Positions 14,239 through 20,067 of a stretch of DNA of 60,421 bases are shown here, piece after piece (within the stretch, counting starts at the first letter, position 1; each line of letters opens with the position of its first letter). Origin of the DNA: an archaeon (lineage in GTDB: Archaea > Thermoplasmatota > Thermoplasmata > Methanomassiliicoccales > Methanomethylophilaceae). Position numbers and translations under genes: made by a program. The notes beneath the pieces were generated by a model. The model was not told the DNA's origin, made no database searches, and saw only the letters and a list, made by a program, of their open reading frames with translations. Location of the stretch: NCBI GenBank assembly GCA_024399155.1, contig JAKSHX010000003.1:1-60421 (forward strand). The letters are read 5' to 3'.

Positions 14239-15072
14239 ATGCATTGTAAAGATGTTTCCATACACGAAGTAAAATTTCCGTTAAACGTTGAAAACATAGC
14301 AAAAGAGATGAATGATTGGACAGTGTACGGCGGATCTGAATATCTTGTTTTTAAGAATTGCGACTCATATGCAGTATTAAAAATTTTTAAAAAAAATACA
14401 GCAGGTATATTTAAGAAAGTTTCAGGATATGAAATACTGTCTCTTCCTGAAAATACCGATTTTGTACAGGATGAAAATATTGATGTATTAAACATTCCAA
14501 CACTAGTTCTTATACAACTTGGACACAAGGAGAAGGGCGTTGTGATAAAGGGAATGTTTTCTCATGTTGTTTTTGTTAAAGACTTAAAACCTCTTTATCT
14601 AGAAATCATAGACTGTATTCCACCATCTCCAGCTAAACTCGGTGTCCTCGTAAAAAAAGCACTGGACTCAAATTTTGTTAACTTACCAGTAGTGACGCAT
14701 GAAACAATCATTGATATAACTTCAAAAATTTCAAAAATAGAAACAGAAGCAGTTATGTTTCCATGTAAAGCATCTGGTATAGAAACTGGCATACCTACTT
14801 ATTATCTTGATGAGGGAACAAGTCTAGCACATGATGTAACACTTATAGGATGCAATCTCTCTAGGAAGATATTTATATCGCTTTATAAAAGAGACGCCCC
14901 GTTCATCAATATTTGTCCCATTAAATACATTCCAAAAAACAAAAAGTGTATAGTGAAATGTTGTGAAATAAAAGAGTATTGTATCGTTGAAAACAACATA
15001 ATAAAAGTTCCATGGAGTGCGGACGTTCCTGAAGTAGCTGAATCAATTAAAACGTTATTTTCAAACCGGTAG
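14239..15072 (+). CDS. conserved-looking protein of unknown function
   Basis: I do not recognise this 277-residue protein with certainty. It is soluble, with no membrane segments or signal peptide. The N-terminal half has mixed alpha/beta character (DWTVYGGSEYLVFKNCDSYA). A central SGIETGIPTYYLDEGTSLAHD and a Cys-containing C-terminal part (CPIKYIPKNKKCIVKCCEI) follow. It may belong to a methanogen-specific DUF. It lies between tRNA-Cys and the cysteine desulfurase gene on the same strand, but with its own spacer, so a link to sulfur metabolism is only suggestive. It ends in TAG, an uncommon stop in this window; a TAA follows 20 codons later in frame. Confidence 0.65.
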   Translation: MHCKDVSIHEVKFPLNVENIAKEMNDWTVYGGSEYLVFKNCDSYAVLKIFKKNTAGIFKKVSGYEILSLPENTDFVQDENIDVLNIPTLVLIQLGHKEKGVVIKGMFSHVVFVKDLKPLYLEIIDCIPPSPAKLGVLVKKALDSNFVNLPVVTHETIIDITSKISKIETEAVMFPCKASGIETGIPTYYLDEGTSLAHDVTLIGCNLSRKIFISLYKRDAPFINICPIKYIPKNKKCIVKCCEIKEYCIVENNIIKVPWSADVPEVAESIKTLFSNR

Positions 15073-16694: not shown

Positions 16695-17120
16695 ATGTAC
16701 AGCATGAGTCCATTCGCCGGCCCTCTCATTTCCGATGAAGAGGTTATGAATAAGTATAAAAAAGAAAACCACTGGGGTCTCATGGTTTCTGTAGACCTCG
16801 GTGAGTGTGATCCGTCCAAAATTTCTAGTAAGGAAGTGATTACGCAGTTCGCCATTGATATCGCGGAACATATCAAAATGAAAAGGTATGGTGAACCTAT
16901 AGTCGTCTTCTTCGGGAACGAACCAAAAGTACAGGGGTATTCTCTGGTGCAACTGATTGAAACGTCACAAATATCTGGTCATTTCGCCGATGATACTAGA
17001 AGAGCGTTTATCGATATTTTTTCATGCAAAGAATTTTGTCCGAAGGCAACAGCAGAATATACGCAAAGGTACTTTGGGGCCAAAAAGATGGAATATGCCG
17101 TGTCTTTTAGAGACATATAA
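16695..17120 (+). CDS. AdoMet-decarboxylase-like pyruvoyl enzyme homologue
   Basis: The 141-residue protein resembles the short prokaryotic S-adenosylmethionine decarboxylase fold (about 120-140 residues). The core TSQISGHF, then AFIDIFSCKEFCPKA, aligns by eye with the family pattern E-S-H-I-S-x-H followed by D-I-F-T-C-G. The serine that becomes the pyruvoyl group, the second His and the later Cys are kept, but the residue before the serine is Thr rather than Glu and the next is Gln rather than His. It may therefore decarboxylate another substrate (arginine and ornithine decarboxylases exist in this fold) or be non-catalytic. A GGTGG ribosome-binding site precedes the ATG. The ABC importer genes follow after 160 bases on the same strand. 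Confidence 0.7.
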   Translation: MYSMSPFAGPLISDEEVMNKYKKENHWGLMVSVDLGECDPSKISSKEVITQFAIDIAEHIKMKRYGEPIVVFFGNEPKVQGYSLVQLIETSQISGHFADDTRRAFIDIFSCKEFCPKATAEYTQRYFGAKKMEYAVSFRDI

Positions 17121-17280: not shown

Positions 17281-18402
17281 GTGGTCGTTGTGAATAAGCA
17301 AGTTGTGGCGCTAGTTGCGGTTGTCGCGATAATACTAACATCTGGAATGGGTCTGTTTTTTATGCAGTCGGGCGGTGGCGACAGAAGTTTCCAAATTATT
17401 TCCGATGTGAATACCGGCGGATCGGGGATATATATTGATAGGAATACAGGGGTATCCGAAAAATTGGATGGTGGGTTGGATAGTAAGTTCATATTGGAGA
17501 ATAAGGAATTGGGTGGACTTGTCATGGGTACTCCAGGTGTCTCATCGATTCAGCATACTCAACTTCAGAAAATTGCCAAAGATTCTGGATTGGATTTTAA
17601 AAAGTATGTTGAGGGAGAAAAACTCAGTGAGGATACTTTATATTACATCGAAGGTTTGAACACCTACAATATGATCAAAAGTGACACAACGATCGATGGC
17701 GGGATTATCTGGGAACCGCTGTATCAGATGGTCATCCAAGAGGGCTCAAGGTATAGGGGGTTTGCTAGTACTAACTACCTTTTCGGGGATCACATATGCT
17801 GTGTCGTTGCCGCAGACAGTGAATGGCTTAAGAATAATGAAGATGTTGCGGTAAGGTTCCTTAGGGGATACATTGAGGGTGTCAAATTCATTATAGATAA
17901 AAGAAATGCTGATGACCTTATTGGTATCGCCAGTAGTTTTATAAATATCAAAGTGGGAGATGACGTAAAAAGAAGTATTGCAGAGGCAGCCATAGATAAT
18001 ATCAATTATAAGTTTGATGATAACGGAAAAGGAGTTCTCAAAGGACTTAGAGAAGGTATTGAAAAACTTTCGTCGGAACTATGTAAAATGGGAATTGGTA
18101 ACAGGTTGCCTGATGCGTTTGTCAACGATTCGTTCATAGAAAAAGCCCTGGTCCTTAAAGAAGATGCGAGTAATACGGGCAATGTCTTGAACGTACCCGT
18201 ATCTGTTATTGATGGTGATCTTCATCACTTGGCGGCTCACATATCTAAGGAGAAGGGATATTTCAAAAAATATGGTTTGGAAGTTGAATTTAAAAAGGGC
18301 AGTTCAGGAGTGATGGTTGCTGATACGCTACTTAGTGGTGATGCTAAAATAGGGTTACTTGGAGCGTCACCCGCTATAGTTAAATTGGCAGGGAGTATGT
18401 GA
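17281..18402 (+). CDS. NitT/TauT-type ABC substrate-binding protein, apparently circularly permuted
   Basis: The 373-residue protein begins with a membrane anchor (VVALVAVVAIILTSGMGLFF, about residues 8-27) and is followed by the permease and ATPase genes of the same importer. In ordinary proteins of this family the segment with K-G-Y-F-K-K-x-G-L and G-x-A-x-I-G-x-L-G-A-S-P-A-I comes first, and the segment reading VNTxGSGI then GTPGVSSIQ follows. Here the order is reversed: the second segment starts at residue 36, and the first occupies residues 306-373 at the very C-terminus. The join fits a circular permutation, or a remnant of two tandem binding domains. The GTG at 17281 or the one at 17290 (GGTGG five bases ahead) is the start. 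Substrate unknown. Confidence 0.8.
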   Translation: MVVVNKQVVALVAVVAIILTSGMGLFFMQSGGGDRSFQIISDVNTGGSGIYIDRNTGVSEKLDGGLDSKFILENKELGGLVMGTPGVSSIQHTQLQKIAKDSGLDFKKYVEGEKLSEDTLYYIEGLNTYNMIKSDTTIDGGIIWEPLYQMVIQEGSRYRGFASTNYLFGDHICCVVAADSEWLKNNEDVAVRFLRGYIEGVKFIIDKRNADDLIGIASSFINIKVGDDVKRSIAEAAIDNINYKFDDNGKGVLKGLREGIEKLSSELCKMGIGNRLPDAFVNDSFIEKALVLKEDASNTGNVLNVPVSVIDGDLHHLAAHISKEKGYFKKYGLEVEFKKGSSGVMVADTLLSGDAKIGLLGASPAIVKLAGSM

Positions 18403-18424: not shown

Positions 18425-19237
18425 ATGAAACTCCGGTATGATGTTCACAACAAGTATCACCGCTTTGCAATAAGGTCTGCCGTTACAGTTGCGTCATTGA
18501 TAATTTTTATCTATGTCTGGTGGATTGCTGCGATGTTGGCTAATAAATCTGTGTTGCCCACACCATATAGGGCGTTTGAGGCGCTGTTACATTTGATTAA
18601 AGACGGAGATCCGGTCCAAAAGGGTCGGACGCTTTGGTCTTTAATTTGGTTGAGTATTTTGAAGCTTGGTAAAGGGTTTGGATTGGCATTTATTACGGCA
18701 TTGCCAGTAGGACTTCTTTTAGGTAACTTCAAATTGTTCAGAGAATTTTTTAGCCCTTGGATAGAAATGATGCGCCCAATTGCACCTATTGCATGGGCAC
18801 CTATCTTTGTTATTTTGTTTACGGTAGGCAATGGTCCAGTAATGGTTGTTTTCATTGGTATATTCTTTCCATTACTCACAAACATTATATTCGGTGTGCA
18901 AAAAATTGATAGAACACTTGTTGATGCTGCTAGAACTCTCGGAGCGTCTGATTGGCAAATATTTACTAAAGTTTTGGCGCCGTCCGCCGTTCCATACGTC
19001 ATGAATGGCATTAAGACAGGTCTTGGAGTAGGGTGGATGTGTATCGTTGCCGCAGAGTTGTATAATACAACGTTGAGTGGTGTTGGTTATTATATAAAAT
19101 TCATGATAGACTGTAGCCGTTATGACTATGCGTTTGCCGGTATTATAGTGATTGGTATACTCGGCTTCCTTACAACTGGGCTTGCAGAATGTTTATCCAG
19201 AGTTGTTTCCAAAAGGATGGGGGTCGACATACGATAA
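18425..19237 (+). CDS. NitT/TauT-type ABC transporter permease
   Basis: The 270-residue membrane protein is a BPD_transp_1 family permease of the SsuC/TauC type. About six membrane helices are visible, the first being SLIIFIYVWWIAAML. The EAA-loop that docks to the ATPase reads DAARTLGASDWQIFTKVLAP, in the expected place near residue 165. The gene begins 22 bases after the binding-protein gene and is followed by the ATPase gene, so the three form one operon for uptake of a small anion or sulfonate-like solute. The substrate cannot be read from the sequence. Confidence 0.92.
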   Translation: MKLRYDVHNKYHRFAIRSAVTVASLIIFIYVWWIAAMLANKSVLPTPYRAFEALLHLIKDGDPVQKGRTLWSLIWLSILKLGKGFGLAFITALPVGLLLGNFKLFREFFSPWIEMMRPIAPIAWAPIFVILFTVGNGPVMVVFIGIFFPLLTNIIFGVQKIDRTLVDAARTLGASDWQIFTKVLAPSAVPYVMNGIKTGLGVGWMCIVAAELYNTTLSGVGYYIKFMIDCSRYDYAFAGIIVIGILGFLTTGLAECLSRVVSKRMGVDIR

Positions 19238-19317
19238 CTAAGACTGATGATGAAAATCAGGACGAACACAGTTTCGCTAGTGAAATATATAAAGGCACCT
19301 CAAAGGAAGAAACAGTG

Positions 19318-20067
19318 ATGAAAGTAAATCACCTTCGTGTGGTGTATCATACAGATGACAACGAAACTGTCGCAGTTGAAGATTTTTCGCTTGATATAGA
19401 AAAAGGCAAGTTAATATCTATTGTGGGCCCCTCTGGATGTGGAAAAACCACTATTCTGAGGTGCTTAGCAGGGTTGTTACAGCCTACATCAGGAGAAATT
19501 TTAGTAAATAATAAAAAATGTGTGAGTCCAGGTTCGGACAGAGGTATGGTCTTTCAAGATTTTGCATTGTTTCCATGGAGAACTGTAAGACAGAATGTAG
19601 AATTTGGACTTGAGATTGCTGGAGTTTCTAAAGGTGTACGTAAAGAGAGGGCTTTAAAATATATTAAAGCAGTGGGATTAGAAAAGTTTGCAGATTCGCG
19701 CATACATGAATTATCTGGAGGGATGAAACAGCGCGTAGGTATCGCTCGTACGCTTATTATGCATCCAGCTGTAATTCTTATGGATGAGCCATTTGGAGCT
19801 TTAGATGCTCAAACCAGGAACATCATGCAGGAACAACTTATTAAGATCTTTGAACAGAGCGAGAAGACAATTGTATTCATTACTCACTCGGTTGATGAGG
19901 CATTATACCTTTCAGACAGAGTGGTTCTTCTTTCTAAGCGTCCATCCATAATCCATCAAATAATTGATATTCCATGGGAAAGACCTAGAAATCGTGCGGA
20001 TCCAGAATTCACTAACCTTAGAAAAAAAATTCTTGATTATCTCGCAGGCCAAAACGTTATTGGTTAA
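19318..20067 (+). CDS. NitT/TauT-type ABC transporter ATP-binding protein
   Basis: This ABC ATPase (249 residues from the ATG at 19318) powers the importer encoded just upstream. Walker A is GPSGCGKTT, the Q-loop VFQDFALFPW, the signature LSGGMKQRVGIA, and Walker B VILMDEPFGALD, followed by the H-loop FITHS. The phrase FALFPWRTV is typical of the SsuB/TauB group. An upstream frame opens at 19189 inside the permease gene, but the ATG at 19318, with AAAGGA ahead, fits the family N-terminus. About 80 bases separate it from the permease stop. Confidence 0.93.
   Translation: MKVNHLRVVYHTDDNETVAVEDFSLDIEKGKLISIVGPSGCGKTTILRCLAGLLQPTSGEILVNNKKCVSPGSDRGMVFQDFALFPWRTVRQNVEFGLEIAGVSKGVRKERALKYIKAVGLEKFADSRIHELSGGMKQRVGIARTLIMHPAVILMDEPFGALDAQTRNIMQEQLIKIFEQSEKTIVFITHSVDEALYLSDRVVLLSKRPSIIHQIIDIPWERPRNRADPEFTNLRKKILDYLAGQNVIG

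Follow-up and report, generated by a model that had tools for sequence, protein, structure and literature searches.

Known permuted binding proteins and related transport systems

A naturally permuted substrate-binding protein (SBP) has been described for Treponema pallidum, namely the circularly permuted glucose-binding protein TpMglB-2 (Tp0684; PMC4990184). In a literature search for permuted substrate-, solute- and periplasmic-binding proteins, which left most subscription journals outside its scope, TpMglB-2 was the only naturally permuted SBP found (PMC4990184), and no class II case was encountered. The SBP studied here resembles TpMglB-2 in several respects: both are natural permutations of the SBP of an ABC importer, both are membrane-tethered, in both the N-terminal part of one lobe is shifted to the C-terminus, and both have permuted homologues, those of TpMglB-2 being present in other bacteria (PMC4990184). 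However, TpMglB-2 belongs to the Type I / Cluster B sugar SBPs, and one permuted order was described for it (PMC4990184), whereas the present operon family is archaeal, belongs to the class II NMT1/SsuA/TauA type and comprises three permuted orders as well as the normal order and a tandem form. Membership in the Type Ic / Cluster Bc SBPs (the TpMglB-2 kind) was rejected, as the sequence matched solely to class II NMT1-type proteins.

Among class II proteins, the alkanesulfonate-binding proteins TauA and SsuA (6ssy, 3e4r; PMC6906117, PMC3839906) are blockwise homologous to the present protein and were among the best PDB profile matches. Their systems likewise feature a NitT/TauT-type permease and an ATPase. 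TauA and SsuA show the normal order, and the blocks of the present family match TauA in swapped positions. Among named families, the permease and ATPase come closest to those of the SaoX/SaoP/SaoA system (NCBIfam), and the SBP shows weak similarity. Membership in the Sao system was rejected based on the curated cut-offs (permease 132 vs 295 bits, ATPase 247 vs 360). OpuAC, considered as a possible permuted class II SBP, was likewise rejected, since permutation is not brought up in its paper.

Natural permutations of one fold are also represented by saposin/swaposin and by DNA methyltransferases and were explained by permutation by duplication, a mechanism that predicts a tandem intermediate; for DNA methyltransferases, tandem or partial-duplicate intermediates have been documented (PMC3320104). 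Unlike these examples, the family described here contains the tandem and several orders within one transporter operon family. The occurrence of several interconverting rotations in a class II NitT/TauT-type SBP seems to be new.

The SBP gene and its operon

The window, i.e., the whole stretch of DNA analyzed (60,421 nucleotides), originates from a genome of 1.29 Mb (176 contigs, 97% complete), in which the SBP is present as a single copy. The host is a methanogen, since its genome encodes methyl-CoM reductase; as judged from gene content and genome size, it probably belongs to the Methanomassiliicoccales. The features of the operon are listed below.

17281-18402, + strand: SBP open reading frame (ORF), GTG start, 373 aa
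17281..17379, + strand: N-terminal membrane anchor, aa 1-33 (from the sequence; hydrophobic at about aa 7-28)
17386..17745, + strand: L2, aa 36 to about 155 (Pfam NMT1_2, conservation, and TauA comparison for the domain limits)
17746..18150, + strand: C1, about aa 156-290 (alignment with the normal-order relative L050, conservation)
18151..18183, + strand: linker, about aa 291-301 (peak of the rotation scan at aa 290; L050 begins and ends here)
18184..18402, + strand: N1, aa 302-373, and stop codon (Pfam NMT1, PDB profile matches)
18425..19237, + strand: ABC transporter permease, NitT/TauT type (Pfam BPD_transp_1, 2.8e-17)
19189..20067, + strand: ABC transporter ATPase (Pfam ABC_tran, 7.8e-36)

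L2 consists of a short strand leading into hinge 1, followed by the normal middle part (domain II), while C1 and N1 correspond to the normal C-terminal and N-terminal parts of domain I, respectively. The hydrophobic stretch agrees with the membrane anchor that the initial annotation had assigned to the new N-terminus. The annotation had also considered the permease and ATPase genes intact, and both were found to be so. For the ATPase, an internal ATG at position 19318 is a likelier start. The permease matched the NCBIfam models SaoP/TauC/NtrB and the ATPase SaoA/NtrCD/TauB, in every case below the cut-off. The same two genes were observed directly downstream of nearly all SBP homologues at the family loci compared, and the window SBP thereby shows the operon context of a NitT/TauT-type system.

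A gene of the AdoMet decarboxylase family (16695-17120, + strand, 141 aa; Pfam AdoMet_dc, 1.1e-20) is located just 5' of the SBP gene. It may be linked to the function of the transporter, since a homologue precedes the SBP in about 20 further family loci. Furthermore, an XcbA-family / DUF7714 protein is encoded three genes 5' of the SBP (14239-15072, + strand); it matched the NCBIfam model CoM_XcbA_fam above its cut-off, and the name of this model suggests coenzyme M metabolism.

Evidence for the rotated chain order

Two Pfam profiles matched the window protein in reversed succession. Positions 4-48 of NMT1 matched aa 316-360 (40.9 bits; cut-off 20.5), so that the normal beginning sits at the end of the protein, and positions 75-250 of NMT1_2 matched aa 31-216 (41.8 bits; cut-off 24.7). 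These matches agree with the initial annotation, in which aa 306-373 had been read as the normal beginning of a binding protein and the residues from 36 on as the part that normally follows. The motifs quoted there were located as claimed: SDVNTGGSGIYI starts at aa 41 and is followed by MGTPGVSSIQ around aa 82, and KGYFKKYGLEVEF lies at approximately aa 325 and DAKIGLLGASPAIVK close to the C-terminus. The Pfam matches exceed the gathering scores for NMT1/SsuA/TauA-type class II SBPs. However, the normal succession domain I(N) - domain II - domain I(C) is not met, since the window protein is composed of II + I(C), followed by I(N). The chain order observed is thus anchor, middle and C-terminal part (aa 36-290), linker, and N-terminal part (aa 302-373), the linker of about 10 residues bridging the ancestral C- and N-termini.

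Against L050, the global alignment score of the window protein increased from 156 to 256 upon rotation at aa 290, the residue at which a scan of possible cut points likewise gave its maximum. A linker had been proposed near residues 270-305; a linker is indeed present, but this range proved too wide with respect to the scan, which supports about aa 291-301. Profile comparisons with hhalign led to the same picture. The family of the window's order (order A) gave two separate matches on a normal SBP profile (64.5 and 60.8) and one contiguous match on the doubled normal profile (109 over 357 columns). For a second rotation, order B, 87+80 on the single profile became 153 on the doubled one, whereas the normal-order control scored 186 on both and showed no gain. 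Accordingly, the two halves align to a homologue in exchanged positions and to its doubled form contiguously, as expected of a natural circular permutant.

A complete domain formed by aa 36-270 alone would have refuted the permutation; it was not found, and the N-terminal part, including the invariant GDxH motif, was recovered in each of the chain orders. A single-sequence AlphaFold2 model of aa 33-373 reached a pLDDT of 34 and was discarded, and no fold search was made from it. As judged from sequence comparisons, the window SBP is a homologue of the NMT1/SsuA/TauA family in the form of a permuted variant.

Chain orders among relatives

The distribution search was limited to this phylum and to plasmid records, and chain orders were assigned by applying a window-type HMM to the ORFs of the retrieved loci. 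An SBP match was obtained in 95 of 101 genomes, representing the window's own genome and relatives in the same taxonomic order. Order A (L2-C1-N1) was observed in 62 genes, all within the window's taxonomic family, and order B (C1-N1-L2) in 39 genes from other families of the taxonomic order and other classes of the phylum. Order C, with its cut at about aa 155, was represented by 6 genes from two genera of the window's family. Moreover, the relatives included 4 normal-order genes and 2 tandem genes. The succession of Pfam blocks differed between the A, B, C, normal and tandem forms in the manner predicted. The natural circular permutation inferred in the initial annotation is hence supported by independent profiles, by the 62 same-order homologues that the suggested search recovered and by normal and two other rotations in relatives.

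Since the window stems from a 176-contig assembly, an assembly or sequencing artefact masking a normal-order gene had to be taken into account. The same order occurs in dozens of independent genomes, however, and several homologues, including ones of order A, reside on single-contig genomes. An assembly error or frameshift, named beforehand as a finding that would overturn the permutation, was not found; this reading is already refuted for the family and can hardly be entertained for the window.

The tandem form (757 aa) was observed in genomes G042 and G049, where the genes L003:316-2586 and L011:307-2577 each encode a single anchor followed by two permuted units arranged head to tail. Across the middle of the protein (aa 330-571), Pfam matches in normal order without interruption. 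The tandem copies inside one genome are most alike and group together in the tree, which suggests gene conversion or recent duplication. The tandem-domain form that the initial annotation had recommended looking for therefore exists. Its alternative interpretation of the window gene as a remnant of a tandem pair holds insofar as the tandem was recovered in two relatives; yet it describes the likely route to the permutation and not a rival to it.

Several loci showed peculiarities. The B-type SBP ORF L034:2815-4413 (G100) carries an extra ~160 aa at its N-terminus, probably due to a misread upstream start, since the normal anchor follows inside (MDKKIAIIAVAVVAIV). At L076 (G046:C18), a second SBP copy is split into ORFs of 141 aa and 283 aa followed by an intact permease and ATPase, which may reflect either an assembly error or the decay of a paralogue. 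The A-type SBP at L065 (G019, reverse strand; 515 aa) possesses an additional C-terminal domain of ~90 aa that, by eye, is carboxypeptidase-regulatory-like.

Beyond these genomes, a B-type protein query against plasmid records returned 187 records, none of which covered 80% of the query; among the 15 matches listed, none runs from C1 across the C-to-N joint, and no permuted form was detected. Scans of viral contigs yielded no SBP relatives usable as input for structure prediction, and a scan of genome contigs retrieved only distant SBPs matching the N1 block.

Conservation and selection

Residues invariant in the family were observed in all three parts of the protein. They comprise N44, G47, S48, P85, G86, Q91 and W144 in L2, with P146 being nearly so, H171, C173 and C174 in C1, forming an H-x-C-C motif, and D313 and H315 in N1 (D-x-H, within GDxH). 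The GD-x-H and H-x-C-C motifs are also carried by the normal-order members, which therefore belong to the clade, and are absent from the generic SBPs compared. A guess would be that the conserved vicinal cysteines bind a thiol or metal ligand.

Close relatives of order A showed dN/dS values of 0.06-0.16, indicating purifying selection, and close pairs of A, B and C values of 0.06-0.21. With 62 same-order genes and dN/dS of 0.06-0.16 over close pairs, the order is both heritable and selected, as required of a natural permutant.

The possibility that the window gene is a decaying remnant, i.e., that two broken SBP copies were fused into a non-functional gene whose frame stayed open by chance, derives from its length, which is short for the family (373 aa), and from its fast evolution (branch of about 1.2 vs 0.4 for its sister in the SBP tree). 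Nevertheless, the window protein retains every family-invariant residue, its operon is intact, it is the sole copy in the genome, and its order is common to a whole family with dN/dS of 0.06-0.16, so that decay is considered very improbable. A functional permuted SBP remains the preferred reading, although the window SBP's own activity is less sure than that of the family because of the long branch and the lack of a close relative for the selection test.

Cut sites and position of the anchor

TauA consists of domain I (residues 23-104 and 202-319) and domain II (105-201), with hinges at 103-106 and 200-202 (PMC6906117). In a profile of B relatives, two blocks matched TauA (6ssy) in swapped order, with profile positions 262-358 corresponding to chain positions 26-120 and 35-120 to 129-212. 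Cut sites were mapped by this alignment using chain number + 21, which brings the ligand-binding residues Glu106 and Trp176 into register. On the TauA scale, cut A corresponds approximately to residues 92-94, which lie in domain I roughly 10 residues ahead of hinge 1. Cuts B and C both fall within domain II, the former near residues 141-150 and the latter near 185-189, ahead of hinge 2. A cut exactly at the lobe boundary with one hinge crossing was rejected for order A, as the mapping places it inside domain I. Both hinge crossings are retained in all chain orders according to this mapping. As inferred from the sequences, the cuts seem to coincide with turns that connect a helix to the following strand. 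An anchor of similar kind precedes the body at the N-terminus in orders A, B, C and normal; A and normal proteins therefore tether domain I, and B and C proteins domain II.

The short linker of about 10 aa and the tandem relatives in two genomes would also fit a trimmed tandem whose parts pair with a second molecule in a domain-swapped dimer, the chain order being a by-product of swapping. However, the joint is seemingly as short in the other permuted orders, and there is no indication of dimers. Moreover, domain I of class II SBPs contains the old N-terminal as well as the old C-terminal part, as documented for TauA (PMC6906117) and SsuA (PMC3839906), and joining the two within one chain is therefore easy. 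Domain swapping is accordingly regarded as improbable compared with permutation within a single chain.

Inferred history of the order switches

Two quick trees, both with open nodes, were calculated: an SBP tree, for which the sequences were first rotated into a common order, and a permease + ATPase tree, which is independent of rotation and was rooted on generic operons. Order C appeared in two places in the SBP tree (single C clade rejected, AU p 8.8e-6) and twice within A in the permease + ATPase tree (AU p 2.4e-5). In the latter tree, B is basal, A is placed once inside B, and the normal order occurs twice inside B, a single clade being rejected (p 0.006). A single normal-order clade remained compatible with the SBP tree alone (p 0.32); for this reason, a twofold return to the normal order is regarded as likely, but not proven. 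With a normal-order outgroup, the minimum number of changes on the operon tree was 7 including the tandem, and 13 if return to normal was forbidden. From these results, about six order switches within the operon family are inferred.

C proteins of genus g12 cluster with sequences of genus g3. Transfer of operons between lineages thus probably occurs and may confuse the direction of change; it could also mean that each chain order arose only once and that its scatter is due to horizontal transfer instead of repeated permutation. Transfer moves operons, yet the operon tree itself separates the C groups (p 2.4e-5) and also the normal-order members (p 0.006), which makes a single origin of each order unlikely and favors repeated permutation. 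The tandem-duplicate intermediate expected under permutation by duplication (PMC3320104) is represented by the 757-aa ORFs in two of the relatives.

Proposed function and implications

Taken together, the gene very probably encodes a functional, membrane-anchored SBP of a NitT/TauT-type ABC importer that is naturally circularly permuted and of recurrent duplication origin; its fold, transport function, duplication mechanism and direction of change are inferred, whereas the homology and sequence order, the operon, the conservation, the selection acting on relatives, the various chain orders and the tandem form rest on direct observation. The rotated chain would fold as a two-lobed class II clamp, a fold for which no usable model is available. 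A small, as yet unidentified solute would presumably be caught between the lobes and passed to the permease, with the ATPase supplying the power; both binding and transport are deduced. The order probably arose when the domain was duplicated in tandem behind a single anchor and redundant ends were subsequently lost. The series proposed leads from normal to B, from B to A (the window type) and from A to C twice, and from B back to normal, probably twice.

For TpMglB-2, tethering was likewise proposed by the authors as the driver of permutation (PMC4990184). In the present operon family, permutation may be ongoing, repeated and reversible, with about six switches, among them two that independently reached almost the same cut site and two that restored the normal order; it would proceed via tandem duplicates and be kept for changing the part tied to the anchor. 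This broader reading is possible, but is put forward only tentatively.

The results also include a warning, namely that linear profiles read permuted SBPs as fragments, and they provide cut sites already tested by nature that could serve in permuted SBP biosensors. In most known cases, natural circular permutation represents a single old event dividing two families; here, one operon family comprises four chain orders and a tandem intermediate, some of them among closely related genomes. The origin of permutation (duplication vs fission and fusion) and the position of the membrane tether as a selective force are thereby testable now.
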